Shown one piece after another: positions 8,911-63,994 of a DNA stretch of 64,000 nucleotides. The notes beneath the pieces are model-generated. The model did no database searches. It had not been told where the DNA came from and was given only the letters and a program-made list of their open reading frames with translations. Origin of the DNA: an uncultured Alphaproteobacteria bacterium (GTDB lineage Bacteria > Pseudomonadota > Alphaproteobacteria > SP197). The DNA lies in assembly GCA_958295695.1 (NCBI GenBank), contig OY282363.1:2732225-2796224 (forward strand), read 5' to 3'. The position numbers were made by a program, and so were the translations under genes. How positions within the stretch are numbered: the stretch's first letter is position 1; every line of letters starts with the position of its first letter.

Positions 8911-11046
<2,136 letters not shown>

Positions 11047-11057
11047 TCCCCGGCGGC

Positions 11058-12005
11058 ATGTCCGACATCGACGCGATCCGGAGCGGCGACCGACGGGCCC
11101 TGGCGCGCGCCATCACGCTGGCCGAATCGTCCCGCCCGGACGACGAGAGCCGCGCGGCGGCGCTGCTGGAGAAGCTGGACCCGCCCCGGACCGGAAGCTG
11201 GCGGCTCGGCGTCTCCGGAGCGCCGGGCGTCGGCAAGTCGACCTTCATCGAGGCCTTCGGGCTTCACGCGCTCGAGCGGGGACGCAGGGTCGCCGTGCTC
11301 GCGGTCGATCCCTCCTCGTCGCTGGGCGGCGGCTCGATCCTGGGCGACAAGACGCGCATGGAGCGGCTGGCGCGCGATCCGCGAGCCTTCATCCGGCCCT
11401 CGCCCTCCGGCGGGGAACCGGGCGGCGTGGCGCGCCGCACCCGCGACGCCGTCCGTCTCGTCGAGGCGGCGGGCTACGACCTCGTCGTCGTCGAGACGGT
11501 CGGCGCCGGCCAGTCGGAGACGGCCGTCGCCGCGATGACCGACATGTTCCTGCTGTTGCTGGCGCCGGGAACGGGCGACGAGTTGCAGGGGGTCAAGCGC
11601 GGCGCGATGGAGCTCGCCGATCTCGTTCTCGTCAACAAGGCGGATGGCGCGCTCGCCGGCCTGGCCCGCCATGCGGTGTCCGACCACCGCGCAGCGATGG
11701 CGCTGCTGCGCCCCCGCGAGAGCTTCTGGACGCCCCGGGTCGAGACCTGTTCGGCGCTGACCGGCGCGGGCATGGACGCGGTCTGGCGGACGGTCGGCGA
11801 CTACTTCGCCGCCGCCGGCATTCCCGACAAGCGCCGGAGCCAGGTCCGGGCGGCGCTGTGGGACGAGGTCGCGCGGCTGGCGGCCGCCCGGCTGCGCGCC
11901 GACCCGGAAAAACGGGCCCTCCTGACCCGGCTGGAACGGGAGGCGGCCGAGGGCCGGCTCCCCCTCCGCCGGGCGGCGGAGCGGCTGCTCGACGGCGCGC
12001 CGTGA
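11058..12005 (+). CDS. meaB: MeaB/ArgK GTPase, chaperone of methylmalonyl-CoA mutase
   Basis: A 315-residue G3E-family GTPase that loads and protects adenosylcobalamin in the mutase. Walker A is GAPGVGKSTFIEAF near residues 54-67. VDPSSSLGGGSILGDKTRME, ETVGAGQSE and the guanine-specific NKAD motif follow in the expected order. It starts 11 bases after the mutase stop, so the two are almost certainly co-transcribed. Its stop overlaps the GTG of the next gene by 3 bases. Confidence 0.96.
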   Translation: MSDIDAIRSGDRRALARAITLAESSRPDDESRAAALLEKLDPPRTGSWRLGVSGAPGVGKSTFIEAFGLHALERGRRVAVLAVDPSSSLGGGSILGDKTRMERLARDPRAFIRPSPSGGEPGGVARRTRDAVRLVEAAGYDLVVVETVGAGQSETAVAAMTDMFLLLLAPGTGDELQGVKRGAMELADLVLVNKADGALAGLARHAVSDHRAAMALLRPRESFWTPRVETCSALTGAGMDAVWRTVGDYFAAAGIPDKRRSQVRAALWDEVARLAAARLRADPEKRALLTRLEREAAEGRLPLRRAAERLLDGAP

Positions 12006-59124: not shown

Positions 59125-59487
59125 TCACAGGATCACGTAGACCTTGGCCACGGCGCGCCTGACATCGCACCGTCCGCTCCATCCCGCCGGGAACCACGCC
59201 GTGTCTCCCCCCGCGATCTCGATCTCGTCGCCGGCGTCGCTGGTGTAGGCGCATTCGCCTTCGAGGAAGTGGCAGAACTCGGGCCGGGCGACCTCGCAGC
59301 GCCAGCTCCCTTCCGTGCAGCGCCAGTAGCCGGCTTCCGGGAAGGTCCCGCCGCCGCCGGTCAGCGTCCGCCCCGACGTGCGGGAGACCGGCTCGCCCAG
59401 GGGTTCGGGCACGGTGCCCCAGTCGCCGAGCTCCCCGTCCGCCAGTCCGGCGGCCCGCCCGAGGAGCGCGACGGCCGGCGCCGTCAT
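59125..59487 (-). CDS. cupin-domain protein
   Basis: A 120-residue protein with a cupin_3-like (DUF861) fold: FPEAGYWRCTEGSWRCEVAR, then EFCHFLEGECAYTSDAGDEI and GGDTAWFPAGWSGRCDVRRA. Such proteins resemble ureidoglycolate/(S)-ureidoglycine cupins and simple metal-binding proteins; the function is not known. Its ATG overlaps the stop of the glycosyltransferase gene (ATGA, 59,484-59,487), so the two are co-translated. Confidence 0.85.
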   Translation of the reverse strand: MTAPAVALLGRAAGLADGELGDWGTVPEPLGEPVSRTSGRTLTGGGGTFPEAGYWRCTEGSWRCEVARPEFCHFLEGECAYTSDAGDEIEIAGGDTAWFPAGWSGRCDVRRAVAKVYVIL

Positions 59488-60776
59488 GCCGCGGTCTTCC
59501 TCAGCAGCCTGTCGAGCTCCTCCGCGCCCTTGCGGCGGCCGTCGGCGGCCTGCATGTGGCGGGCGAGCTTGTCCAGCCTCGCCTTCATCGCGCCGTCGCC
59601 GAGCATGCGCGCAAGGGCGCCGGCGATGTCGGCGTCCGTCCAGGTGTAGCGTTCCAGGGCGAGGCCGTAGCCGCGCTCGTCGATGTGGGTGGCGTTGTCG
59701 TGGCCGTCCCAGCAGTAGGGCATGATGAGCGCCGGCTTGCCGAAATAGAGGCATTCGTTGAAGCTGTTGTTGCCGCCGTGGTGGATCACCGCGTCGACCT
59801 GCTCGATCGCGCTGGGCTGAGGATACCAGCTCTCGACGTGGCAGTTGTCGGGGATGGCGTCGTAGGCATCGCGGTAGTCGCCGACGTTGACCAGCACCCG
59901 GTAGGGCAGCGCGCCGAGCGTCGCCATCAGACGTTTCATGAGGTCCGTGTCGCCCGAACCCAGGCTGCCGAAGCTGACGTAGATCAGCGGCTTGTCGTCG
60001 TGGACCTTGAACCGGGGCGTCTCATAGGCCTCCTCGGCGCGGATGCAGCCCTCCAGGTAGACGAACCTCTCGGGGTCCAGGGGATGGCGCCGGTTGAAGG
60101 CCAGCGGCTTGGGATAGTGCAGCAGGTTGAGCCACGGCGAGGTCTCGAAGAACTGTCCCGTGGGGTAGGGCTCCTCGCCGCGGGACTCCAGGAATTCGTT
60201 GAACCTCGCGTGGATCGGCCCGATCTCGCGCTCGAACGCCTCGCGATAGGCGGCGAAGCCCGCCGGGTCGTCCTCGCGGCAGCCCGAGAGGTGCGGCGGA
60301 ATGTCGGGGTCCTCGATCTCGTTCTCGCTGCACGAGATGATCCGCACCCAGGGTACGCCGTAACGCTTCGCGGCCGGGAACAGGACCACGTTGTCGACGC
60401 AGATCAGGTCCGGCCCGATCTCGTCGAGGGCCCGGGGCAGGTCCTTCTCCGCCCACACGGCGGTCTCCACGATCGCCTCCCAGCACGCCTTGATGTAGGT
60501 CGAGACCTGCTCGATCGGCGGCGTCCTGAAGTTCGGGATCTGCCCGTTGATGAAGTCCGACCAGTAGCGCGCCATGGCCTCCGGCTCCATCGGTTCCGAC
60601 ATGGCGATCAGGCGCTCCTCGAAACCGTAGCCCTCGAAGACGCCGCCGAAGCCGGCGTCGGCCACGAAGACCGGATTGTGCCCCATCTCCCGGCAGACCT
60701 GCGCGATGCCCACGGAGTTCAGCGCCGGTCCGAAGGCGGCTTCCGGAAAGAAGACGATGGTTTTGCCGTCGCTCAT
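59484..60776 (-). CDS. GT1 (UGT/MGT-like) glycosyltransferase
   Basis: A 430-residue GT-B glycosyltransferase. The N-terminal acceptor domain starts IVFFPEAAFGPALNSVGI. The C-terminal donor domain has LIYVSFGSLGSGDTDLMKRL, then ESWYPQPSAIEQVDAVIHHG and GNNSFNECLYFGKPALIMPY, the UGT/MGT signature with the donor-binding HHGG-NS. Such enzymes glycosylate lipids, antibiotics or small hydrophobic molecules in the cytoplasm, using nucleotide sugars. The acceptor is unknown. It is followed by a co-translated cupin and preceded, 48 bases away, by the ABC-like gene. Confidence 0.88.
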   Translation of the reverse strand: MSDGKTIVFFPEAAFGPALNSVGIAQVCREMGHNPVFVADAGFGGVFEGYGFEERLIAMSEPMEPEAMARYWSDFINGQIPNFRTPPIEQVSTYIKACWEAIVETAVWAEKDLPRALDEIGPDLICVDNVVLFPAAKRYGVPWVRIISCSENEIEDPDIPPHLSGCREDDPAGFAAYREAFEREIGPIHARFNEFLESRGEEPYPTGQFFETSPWLNLLHYPKPLAFNRRHPLDPERFVYLEGCIRAEEAYETPRFKVHDDKPLIYVSFGSLGSGDTDLMKRLMATLGALPYRVLVNVGDYRDAYDAIPDNCHVESWYPQPSAIEQVDAVIHHGGNNSFNECLYFGKPALIMPYCWDGHDNATHIDERGYGLALERYTWTDADIAGALARMLGDGAMKARLDKLARHMQAADGRRKGAEELDRLLRKTAA

Positions 60777-60824
60777 GTGTCTGTCCCGTCAGGTTGAAAC
60801 GGCCCGTTTCGGCGGGATCGCCGG

Positions 60825-61901
60825 TCAGAGCGGCACCGGACGCGCCGCCTCGTCGTCCCACGTACACCACACCCGGCGGCCTTCCCGCAAGTCGTCCGCG
60901 TCGAGCTGGGCGGTGTCGACGCGCGCGATCAGGGTCTCGTCCATGCCTTCCAGGCGGATATGCGCGGCCAGCCCGATCACCGAATAGGCGAGGCCCGAGA
61001 CGCGGCCTTCGAGGGCGGGCGCGCCGGGCCGCCGGAGATGGATCCCGACGGCGTCGGGGCGCAGCAGAAGAGCCTGGCGCCCACCGCCCTCGGCCGCGCG
61101 CCGGGCGGCCGGACCGAGCGACGCGGGCGGCAGGGCGCCGAGGGCGCGGCCGGGGACGAGGTTCGCCGGCCCGGTGAGCCGCGCGGTGACGGCGTGGCGC
61201 GGCGAGTCGTAGACCGCGCGCGGGCGGTCCAGTTCGATCATGCGCCCATCGTGCATCACGCCGACCCGGTCGGCGAAGGCCATGGCCGTGGCCCCGTCGC
61301 CGGTCGCCAGCATCAACGTGAACCGGGCTTCGCCCTGCAGGGTCCCGAGACGACCGAGGATCTGGCCAGCCTGCGCGGCGTCGACCATGCCGAGCGCGTC
61401 GTCCATCAGCAGGACCAGGGGCTCGACCGCCAGGGCCCGGGCCAGCGCCGCCCGCTGGCGTTCGCCCGGGTTGAGCGCGCCGGGCCAAGCGTCCTCGCGT
61501 CCGCGGAGCCCGGCCAGGTCCAGCGCGCTCCCGATCCGGCTCTCGAGTTCGGACCGGCCCATGCCGCGCGCGTTCAGCCCATAGGCCACGTTCTTGCCCA
61601 CCGTCATGTGCGGAAACAGGGCGTCCCGCGCGGTCAGCAGGGCGAAGGGCCGCCGCCGCGCGGGGGCCGTCTGGACCTCGTGGCCGTTGAACAGTATCCG
61701 GCCGCCGGTGAGCGTGCCGAAGCCGGCGATCAGCCGCAGCAGGCACCCGCCGCCGGCGGCCGCCTCGCCGAGGAGGACCACCGTCCGCCCGGCCGGGACG
61801 CCGAGCGTGATGTCCGCCACCGGCGGCAGGCGGTCGGCGAAGCCGCTCAGCCCTTGGAGCTCCAGGGTGTTTGTCGCGCCCATGGCCGCGATGGTGCGCA
61901 T
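60825..61901 (-). CDS. Catalytically degenerate ABC-transporter ATPase homologue (PotA/FbpC-like)
   Basis: A 358-residue protein with the layout of a sugar/polyamine-type ABC ATPase plus C-terminal TOBE domain. Each functional motif is altered. Walker A reads GEAAAGGGCLL (no Lys or Ser/Thr); the Q-loop is LLTARDALFPHMTV (Gln to Thr); the signature is LNPGERQRAALARALA instead of LSGGQ; Walker B reads LVLLMDDALGMVD with no catalytic Glu; the switch is ATGDGATAMAFADRV with no His. Lengths between motifs are normal and the frame is intact, so this looks like a preserved non-hydrolysing protein rather than a decayed gene. No permease is nearby. A start at 61,883 (MGATNTLELQ) is an alternative. Confidence 0.8.
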   Translation of the reverse strand: MRTIAAMGATNTLELQGLSGFADRLPPVADITLGVPAGRTVVLLGEAAAGGGCLLRLIAGFGTLTGGRILFNGHEVQTAPARRRPFALLTARDALFPHMTVGKNVAYGLNARGMGRSELESRIGSALDLAGLRGREDAWPGALNPGERQRAALARALAVEPLVLLMDDALGMVDAAQAGQILGRLGTLQGEARFTLMLATGDGATAMAFADRVGVMHDGRMIELDRPRAVYDSPRHAVTARLTGPANLVPGRALGALPPASLGPAARRAAEGGGRQALLLRPDAVGIHLRRPGAPALEGRVSGLAYSVIGLAAHIRLEGMDETLIARVDTAQLDADDLREGRRVWCTWDDEAARPVPL

Positions 61902-62014
61902 TCCGCCGGGCGCGATCAAGCGGCTCCGGCGTTGAAGACAACGGACCGGAACGCCGATATCCTCTCGCCGAAGCGAGTTTACCCTTTCCCGCTTTTCCGG
62001 ACCCGGCCCGACGG

Positions 62015-63994
62015 ATGCCCGACCACGCCGACTTCGCGAACCTGATCTGGCAGATCGCCGACCTGCTGCGCGGCCCATACCGCCCACCGCAATACGAGCG
62101 CGTCATGCTGCCGATGACCGTGCTTCGCCGCTTCGACTGCGTGCTGACCCCTACCAAGGACAAAGTCCTCGCGGAACACGAACGCCTGAAGGGCCGGCTC
62201 GAAGGCAACGCGCTGGAGGCCAGGCTGGACGCGGCGGCGGGCCAGCGTTTCCACAACCGTTCGCCGCTGGATTTCAACCGGCTGAAGGGCGACCCAGACG
62301 GGGTCGCGCGACACCTCGTCGGCTACATCCAGGGCTTTTCGACCGATGTGCGCGACATCTTCGAGTATTTCGAGTTCGAGAACGAGATCGACAAGATGCG
62401 CGAGGCGAACATCCTCTATCTCGTGGTCTCGAAGTTCGCCGATGTCGATCTGCACCCCGATACGGTCCCCAATCCGCAAATGGGCCTCATTTTCGAGAAC
62501 CTGATCCGCCGCTTCAACGAACTGGCGAACGAAACCGCGGGCGACCACTTCACGCCGCGCGACGCGATCCGGCTGATGGTGAACATCCTGTTCATCGACG
62601 ACGACGACCTTCTCGCGGTCCCCGGCACGGCGCGCACGTTGCTGGACCCGGCCTGCGGCACCGGCGGCATGCTGGCCGAGGCGCAGAACTACCTGCGCGA
62701 CCACCACGCGCAGGCTCGGCTCTTCGTCTACGGCCAGGACTACAACCCGCGCGCCTTCGCCACCGCCGCCTCCGACATGCTGATGAAGCAGGTGGACCAC
62801 AACGGCGGCGGCGACAACATCCGCTTCGGCGACAGCTTCACGGAGGACAGGTTCCCGGGAGAGACCTTCGACTATTTCCTCACCAACCCGCCGTTCGGCG
62901 TGGACTGGAAGAAGCAACGGAAGGACATCCGGCGCGAGCATGAGAAGGACGGCTTCGCCGGCCGTTTCGGCGCCGGCCTGCCGCGCGTGAGCGACGGTTC
63001 GCTGCTCTTCCTCCAGCACATGTGGCGCAAGCGCGAGCCCGTGCGCCCCAGGGAACACAAGCACGGCTCGCGCCTCGCCATCGTCCTGAGCGGCTCGCCG
63101 CTCTTCGCCGGCGGCGCGGGCTCGGGCGAGAGCGAGATCCGCCGGTGGTTCATCGAGAACGACTGGCTGGAAGCCATCGTCGCGTTGCCGGAACAGATGT
63201 TCTACAACACCGGCATCGGCACCTATGTCTGGATCGTCGCCAACCGCAAGGAGAAGCGGCGCAAGGGCCGTATCCAGCTCGTCGACGCGCGCGACGTATG
63301 GACCGCCGGCGGCGGCGTGGAGAGCAAGCGCAGCCTCGGCGACAAGCGCCGGCACATCGCCGACGGTCAGATCGAAGAGATTGTGCGCCTCTACGGGCGC
63401 TTCGAGGATGGCGAGCGCTCCAGGCTTTTCGACAATGCCGACTTCGGCTACACCCGCGTTACCGTCGAGCGCCCGCTGCGGCTGCGCTACCGAATGACGG
63501 TCGAGAACAAGGCGCGTTTCCTCGACGCCTGCCCGGAATTGCTCGACGATGTGCAAGCCATCGACACGGCGCTCGGCGGTGAACCCTTGCGGGACTGGAA
63601 CGCCGTCCAGGACCGCGTCCGCGACCTGCTGCGCGAGCGTAGCTCTCGCTGGACGCAGAAAGAGCAGAAGCTCTTTCGCGATGTCTTCACCGAAAAGGAC
63701 CCGGATGCCGTGCCCATCGTGAAGGAAAGTAGCGGACCCGAACCCGACTCGGCGCTGCGCGATTTCGAGAACGTGCCGCTCAAGCAGGACATCGACGCCT
63801 ATTTCGAACGCGAGGTCCGGCCGCACCTGCCCGACGCCTGGATGGACAGGGAGAAAGACAAGATCGGCTACGAGATCGCCTTCAATCGTCACTTCCACAA
63901 GTACACGTCGCCGCGCCCGCTGGAGGAGATCGACGCGGACCTGAAGGCGACCGAGAAAGAGATCGTGCGTCTGTTTCGGGAGGTGGTTGGATGA
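62015..63994 (+). CDS. hsdM: Type I restriction-modification DNA methyltransferase subunit
   Basis: A 659-residue N6-adenine methyltransferase (HsdM). The N-terminal helical domain starts FANLIWQIADLLRGPYRPPQ, then YERVMLPMTVLRRFDCVL. The AdoMet-binding motif I is LLDPACGTGGMLAEA near residue 210, and the catalytic motif IV is NPPFGVDWKK near residue 290. GEFYTPR-like AGDHFTPRDAIRLM and EQMFYNTGIGTYVWIVANRK also fit. The C-terminal 150 residues contain EIAFNRHFHKY and a coiled coil ending LFREVVG. It would pair with a specificity subunit, and the stop overlaps a new ATG (ATGA), the expected hsdS position. Confidence 0.94.
   Translation: MPDHADFANLIWQIADLLRGPYRPPQYERVMLPMTVLRRFDCVLTPTKDKVLAEHERLKGRLEGNALEARLDAAAGQRFHNRSPLDFNRLKGDPDGVARHLVGYIQGFSTDVRDIFEYFEFENEIDKMREANILYLVVSKFADVDLHPDTVPNPQMGLIFENLIRRFNELANETAGDHFTPRDAIRLMVNILFIDDDDLLAVPGTARTLLDPACGTGGMLAEAQNYLRDHHAQARLFVYGQDYNPRAFATAASDMLMKQVDHNGGGDNIRFGDSFTEDRFPGETFDYFLTNPPFGVDWKKQRKDIRREHEKDGFAGRFGAGLPRVSDGSLLFLQHMWRKREPVRPREHKHGSRLAIVLSGSPLFAGGAGSGESEIRRWFIENDWLEAIVALPEQMFYNTGIGTYVWIVANRKEKRRKGRIQLVDARDVWTAGGGVESKRSLGDKRRHIADGQIEEIVRLYGRFEDGERSRLFDNADFGYTRVTVERPLRLRYRMTVENKARFLDACPELLDDVQAIDTALGGEPLRDWNAVQDRVRDLLRERSSRWTQKEQKLFRDVFTEKDPDAVPIVKESSGPEPDSALRDFENVPLKQDIDAYFEREVRPHLPDAWMDREKDKIGYEIAFNRHFHKYTSPRPLEEIDADLKATEKEIVRLFREVVG

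Follow-up and report, generated by a model that had tools for sequence, protein, structure and literature searches.

An orphan PotA-derived ABC pseudo-ATPase under purifying selection beside a GT1 glycosyltransferase gene in an uncultured alphaproteobacterium

The locus and its coding sequences

The window, meaning the whole 64,000-nucleotide stretch of DNA analysed, belongs to a 3.45 Mb genome of an uncultured alphaproteobacterium and carries on its reverse strand a degenerate ABC ATPase gene (the pseudo-ATPase), followed by a glycosyltransferase (GT) and a cupin. The genes and the second domain of the pseudo-ATPase are as follows.

60825..61883 (-): PotA-derived pseudo-ATPase, probable true coding sequence, based on ABC_tran and TOBE_2 domains, eight full-length orthologues and a start-codon comparison
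60840..61070 (-): TOBE_2 domain, residues 278-354, 25.6 bits (cut-off 21)
59484..60776 (-): GT1-type (MGT/UDPGT-like) glycosyltransferase, 48 nt downstream of the pseudo-ATPase, present in 15/16 family genomes
59125..59487 (-): EutQ-like cupin (Pfam Cupin_3), its start overlapping the GT stop (ATGA; junction GCATGACG)

The open reading frame at 60825-61901 (-) comprises 358 codons without a stop, and Pfam assigns it ABC_tran (68.9 bits) and TOBE_2 (25.6 bits), both exceeding their gathering thresholds. The original prediction described this frame, its motif spacing and its TOBE domain as intact. Frame, fold and spacing stand, the motif spacing being undisturbed by any indel relative to the intact ATPase of a second family, f37, but the start is probably displaced, and the TOBE domain, while above its cut-off, scores lower than in the intact f37 relative (25.6 vs 44.3 bits). 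The true start is probably ATG 61883 rather than the upstream ATG 61901, as judged from a comparison of nine upstream regions in which the site at 61883 is ATG or GTG in 9/9 orthologues, whereas the equivalent of the 61901 codon is missing in genomes G003 and G014 and the upstream codons of G002 and G005 are out of frame. Immediately 5' of this start, at about 61884-61925 (-), a CTTGA motif is common to most orthologues, and CGCACSATC follows it by about 20 nt, directly before the start codon; the pair is possibly the gene's own promoter or leader.

The predicted structure comprises a full nucleotide-binding domain (NBD) and a C-terminal domain with a mean pLDDT of 84, and Foldseek matches it to structures of FbpC, CysA, PotA and MalK with query TM values of about 0.74-0.79. 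Domains and fold identify the protein by descent as an importer ATPase with a TOBE domain, of the PotA/MalK type. It falls short of the PotA subfamily model TIGR01187, scoring 178.3 bits against a cut-off of 355.6, while the intact f37 ATPase passes with 383.9 bits.

Loss of the catalytic motifs

Motifs were compared with those of the intact f37 ATPase, and the following positions differ or are degenerate in the window.

61743..61769 (-): degenerate Walker A, GEAAAGGGC; Lys to Gly, Thr to Gly (motif comparison)
61629..61631 (-): Q-loop position, Gln to Ala (LLTARD; motif comparison)
61461..61475 (-): degenerate ABC signature, LNPGE for LSGGQ (motif comparison)
61398..61418 (-): Walker B, LVLLMDD; Asp kept, catalytic Glu to Asp (motif comparison)
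61299..61301 (-): switch (H-loop) position, His to Gly; replaced in 9/9 orthologues (motif comparison)

Aligned pairwise, the window reads GEAAAGGG against GPSGCGKT of f37 in Walker A, LLTARDALFPH against LMFQSYALFPH in the Q-loop, LLMDD against LLLDE in Walker B, and ATGD against VTHD at the switch. The comparison confirms the predicted loss of Walker A Lys and Ser/Thr, Q-loop Gln, LSGGQ, Walker B Glu and switch His, and adds one detail to that list, the retention of the Walker B Asp. None of the residues and motifs needed for catalysis (Walker A Lys, Q-loop Gln, signature, catalytic Glu, switch His) survives, so the protein would not be a working ABC importer ATPase.

Orthologues and the order of motif loss

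Full-length orthologues occur in 8/15 other genomes of the family, spanning three genera at 43-60% identity, and are well separated from the other ABC ATPases of these genomes (at least 547 bits vs at most 256 bits). A scan of the genome contigs returned distant ABC proteins only. All nine frames, the window's and the eight others, are open.

The original prediction proposed asking whether the same substitutions recur in orthologues. They do, and no close relative with intact motifs was found: 9/9 have a degenerate signature, and in each of them the switch His has given way to G, A, T, S or R. The Q-loop Gln is retained in G002 only. Walker A Lys is kept in 6/9, together with Ser/Thr in 5/9 (G002, G005, G012, G014, G015), and is lost in the window genome (G000), G003 and G009, from which the Thr has gone too; these three form a single clade, G009+(G000,G003), with 97% support in the ABC tree. 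The Walker B Asp is invariant across the nine. Since signature and switch are lost throughout and Walker A in one clade, the loss of signature and switch would date to the family ancestor or earlier, and that of Walker A would have come afterwards. In nineteen columns the pseudo-ATPases all share one residue that none of 15 active relatives has.

Gene neighbourhood and operon ancestry

All nine pseudo-ATPases lie directly upstream of the same GT1 glycosyltransferase, none has been seen without it, and neither permeases nor a binding protein were found in the nine neighbourhoods. The predicted adjacency to a GT1 gene and lack of a permease are thus borne out in 9/9 genomes, and the gene is not part of a working ABC importer with cognate permeases and binding protein. 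The block shared by the window and its relatives is limited to ATPase-GT-cupin, the MeaB gene and other neighbours found in relatives being absent here. Divergent from the pseudo-ATPase and upstream of it, an HsdM-type type I methylase gene (N6_Mtase, HsdM_N) occupies 62015-63994 (+); its presence where most relatives have MeaB indicates that the block sits in a different place in the window genome.

In a search across the class the GT also turned up in f37, where an intact ATPase immediately precedes it in an operon encoding a PotD-like binding protein, two permeases, ATPase, GT, cupin, cupin, aldehyde dehydrogenase and FAD oxidoreductase. This arrangement of a PotABCD-type importer with GT1, two cupins, aldehyde dehydrogenase and an FAD amine/amino-acid oxidase is seen at L115 4214-13128 (-) and in relatives. 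Within the order of f37 (17 genomes), a full ATPase with all motifs intact lies just before the GT in 13/17, a C-terminal ATPase part lies further upstream in 3/17, and none occurs within 1.5 kb in 1/17. A permease hidden elsewhere in the genome was considered and ruled out as a close orthologue, the best matches to f37 PotD and PotC in the window's family reaching 31% and 45%. Because the GT follows an intact PotD-permease-permease-PotA series in f37, the pseudo-ATPase would be a leftover of that importer: a Pot-GT-cupin operon likely lost its importer, while ATPase, GT and cupin remained. Loss of an ancestral Pot-type operon explains the missing permease.

Other genomes carry less of the gene. 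No ATPase before the GT was found in G001, G004, G007, G008, G011 and G013, all of which bear the GT. In G031, of another family, only a C-terminal ATPase fragment lies upstream of the GT; this PotA-like piece, at L117 ~10709-11104 (-), has its switch His intact, adjoins the GT and derives by truncation from the same ancestral gene.

The GT itself is unusually conserved (79-86% identity among the nine and for most family members, roughly 60% between families), and an EutQ-like cupin generally follows it; the GT-cupin pair, 59125-60776 (-) in the window, resembles the central part of an uncharacterised pathway. In some genomes (L120 7201-11239; L142-L144) another GT paralogue, less closely related (50-55%), lies nearby, and at L120 the two GTs are convergent and surrounded by cupin, GcvT-like and aldehyde dehydrogenase genes.

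A conserved DNA element within the 3' end of the ORF

The 3' end of the pseudo-ATPase ORF contains a further feature.

60863..60892 (-): promoter-like element ACTTGC-N15-TRTGGTSTA, identified by conservation and synonymous constraint

The pattern matches exactly once in each of 11/16 family genomes, and every match lies close upstream of the GT; no control matches were obtained. It is kept upstream of the GT in four ATPase-less genomes despite differing upstream genes; their sequences are unrelated until about 10 nt before the element and then identical at 16-19 of 20 positions, giving a sharp upstream boundary, although shared ancestry of the remnant contributes to this similarity. Codons 338-347 show the strongest synonymous constraint in the ORF, a level reached anywhere in the gene by 10/300 simulated genes. 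The C-terminal peptide DDLPEGRRVWCTW is encoded by near-constant DNA, with TTG for Leu and TGT for Cys in 8/9, and its value as proof of protein function was downgraded, the DNA itself being constrained: with a nested element there, C-terminal conservation is partly not the protein's. A consensus scan of 60700-62100 found no generic sigma-70 promoter, so the element is not of sigma-70 type or spacing. Its position and conservation suggest that it is probably the GT promoter, born in or overlapping the ATPase 3' end, though it could be an operator instead.

Selection on the pseudo-ATPase

Selection was assessed with a purpose-written MG94-type codon model fitted by maximum likelihood with F3x4 frequencies, preferred because pairwise NG86 dN/dS approaches saturation in the majority of comparisons; for the two closest pairs, NG86 yields 0.12 and 0.065. 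One-ratio omega was 0.170 for the pseudo-ATPase, compared with 0.077 for the GT and 0.066 for the intact PotA-like paralogue of the same nine genomes, so that constraint is about 2.5 times weaker than on the intact paralogue. On the window branch, omega was 0.173 and omega=1 was rejected by 6.1 lnL (2dlnL 12.2, 1 d.f.). The three Walker-A-less tips jointly gave 0.21, with omega=1 rejected by 70 lnL, while for G009 (0.52) and G014 (0.39) omega=1 was not rejected individually. When the last 30 codons were dropped, overall omega was 0.152 and that of the window tip 0.177, with omega=1 rejected weakly (2.6 lnL). Constraint so persisted after Walker A loss, at a level weaker than on a working ATPase.

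The intact frame had been read as a sign against decay. It is intact in 9/9, but alone this is weak at the G+C of these genes, the probability of no stop under neutrality being 0.04 for one substitution per codon and 0.0004 for the fitted value of 2.3, and an open frame as proof of function was discarded. The selection tests, and not the open frame, carry the argument against mere decay. The constraint that the original prediction proposed to look for is present, and a dN/dS near 1 was not found. With nine open frames and an omega of 0.17, the gene does not show the hallmarks of a pseudogene; purifying selection after loss of catalytic residues, on the window branch (0.17) and on the Walker-A-less tips (0.21), is what a maintained pseudoenzyme would show.

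A preserved permease-docking segment

Conservation was measured against 136 positions that are invariant in 15 active relatives. The window retains 8/23 of these in the ATP motifs, 40/83 in the rest of the NBD and 11/21 in the C-terminal part. Faster decay of the ATP motifs than of the rest of the NBD was not significant (p 0.16); the region that stands out instead is the following.

61575..61622 (-): post-Q-loop segment ALFPHMTVGKNVAYGL, the permease-facing part in active importers; 9/9 residues kept, Fisher p 0.003

This segment, at positions 94-109, is the best-preserved region (Fisher p 0.003, the segment having been picked from prior knowledge of active importers). In importers of the PotA/MalK type, it lines the groove that receives the coupling helix of the permease. 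Its conservation may be partly structural. Together with the 19 fixed columns specific to the pseudo-ATPases, it points to the keeping of a protein-binding face and not of ATP chemistry.

Interpretation and rival explanations

The favoured reading, to which a probability of roughly 0.55 is given, is that a PotA-type ATPase, deprived first of its transporter and later of its catalytic site, has been retained by selection within a single alphaproteobacterial family as a non-catalytic protein tied to the GT1 and cupin genes. In the proposed sequence, the importer ATPase would lose its transporter first and its catalytic site afterwards. The resulting protein would not hydrolyse ATP, and its retained docking face would bind a protein partner, making it a regulator or adaptor; the partner may belong to the GT/cupin pathway, or it may be the coupling loop in the permease of a different importer. 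A GT promoter in the 3' end of the pseudo-ATPase gene could allow the ATPase and the GT to be transcribed separately. The suggested role as regulator, binding protein or scaffold is plausible, being consistent with the constraint and the permease loss. Because the Walker and signature sides are both degenerate, an inhibitory or structural role would be likelier than an asymmetric motor of the Pdr5 kind. As a counterpoint, the pseudo-ATPase evolves much faster than the adjacent GT and the intact paralogue, and its absence from G001/G004/G007/G008 and G011/G013, which retain the GT, indicates that it is dispensable.

Slow decay remains the main rival: the gene would be on its way out under weak residual constraint, losing its catalytic motifs first and, in sister lineages, disappearing whole. 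The absence of the gene from two family lineages, the C-terminal fragment of G031 with its intact switch His upstream of the GT, the roughly 2.5-fold relaxation of dN/dS and the compatibility of tips G009 and G014 with neutrality all agree with this course, whereas neutrality is rejected on the window branch and on the three Walker-A-less tips, the nine frames are intact at 43-60% identity, and erosion is uneven, sparing the docking segment. The codon model rules out simple decay as the sole explanation for the window branch, and slow decay, given the relaxed tips and the losses, is retained as a rival, though rated unlikely on the whole. Retention of the locus for its DNA is far less probable. 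Here deletions reaching the GT promoter in the 3' end would be harmful and the ORF would persist with it, as the fixed spacing of the element, its occurrence once per genome ahead of the GT whether or not an ATPase is present, and the synonymous constraint at codons 338-347 (10/300 simulations) would lead one to expect; such an element accounts for only about 30-40 nt, however, the rest of the ORF shows an omega of 0.152, and the four ATPase-less genomes demonstrate that it can be kept without the ORF.

Two further proposals give the protein a definite activity. One narrows the favoured explanation to a dummy or inhibitory subunit, which would pair with an intact PotA-like ATPase or dock on its permeases, tuning polyamine-type import. 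The retained docking segment, the presence of intact PotA-like paralogues and permeases in the same genomes, and the existence of functional composite degenerate sites in exporters such as Pdr5 (PMC7756269) lend this some appeal, but degeneracy of both the Walker and the signature sides would damage either composite site of a heterodimer and no permease gene is nearby, leaving the proposal rather doubtful. A nucleotide-binding, non-hydrolysing sensor is as improbable as retention for DNA: Walker A Lys and Ser/Thr are intact in G002, G005, G012, G014 and G015 and the Walker B Asp is invariant, yet in the window, G003 and G009 both Walker A residues are gone, which makes binding unlikely there, and constraint persists nonetheless.

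More broadly, and only tentatively, the favoured history of importer loss may be one in which an ABC fold turned into a non-catalytic protein-binding module for a GT1/cupin pathway after collapse of a complete polyamine-type importer operon, with a GT promoter arising from ATPase coding sequence. The intact operon, the orphan with Walker A, the orphan without it, the fragment and the absent gene form a graded series within one bacterial class, so that the route by which a transporter subunit becomes a pseudoenzyme, and the emergence of a promoter in coding sequence, can be tested directly.

Comparison with known systems

PotA, the spermidine/putrescine import ATPase (TIGR01187, PDB 8y5f), and the f37 ATPase share the NBD-TOBE_2 architecture, fold and motif spacing of the pseudo-ATPase, and the PotA-like f37 protein also occupies the same gene position, directly before the same GT. 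Unlike PotA, the pseudo-ATPase lacks Walker A Lys, Q-loop Gln, LSGGQ, catalytic Glu and switch His, as well as the partner genes PotB, PotC and PotD. Pseudoenzymes in general likewise combine a conserved fold, lost catalytic motifs and sequence constraint (PMC10211241), and the main text of that review mentions neither ATPases nor ATP-binding cassette proteins.

Degenerate ATP sites are well known within working ABC transporters; a selected, permease-less NBD without catalytic motifs appears undescribed, a limited search of open-access text having found no paper on a stand-alone ABC pseudo-ATPase. The closest parallel is NBS1 of Pdr5, in which Walker A Lys, Walker B Glu, H-loop His and the signature (LNVEQ) are degenerate, the same set of substitutions as in the pseudo-ATPase, and which is evolutionarily kept and non-catalytic (PMC7756269). 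In heterodimeric and full-size exporters such as Pdr5, the degenerate site is one of two in a working transporter (PMC7756269), whereas both halves of the stand-alone, permease-less NBD described here are degenerate. The pseudo-ATPase is a stand-alone variant of a known phenomenon, that of degenerate NBDs.
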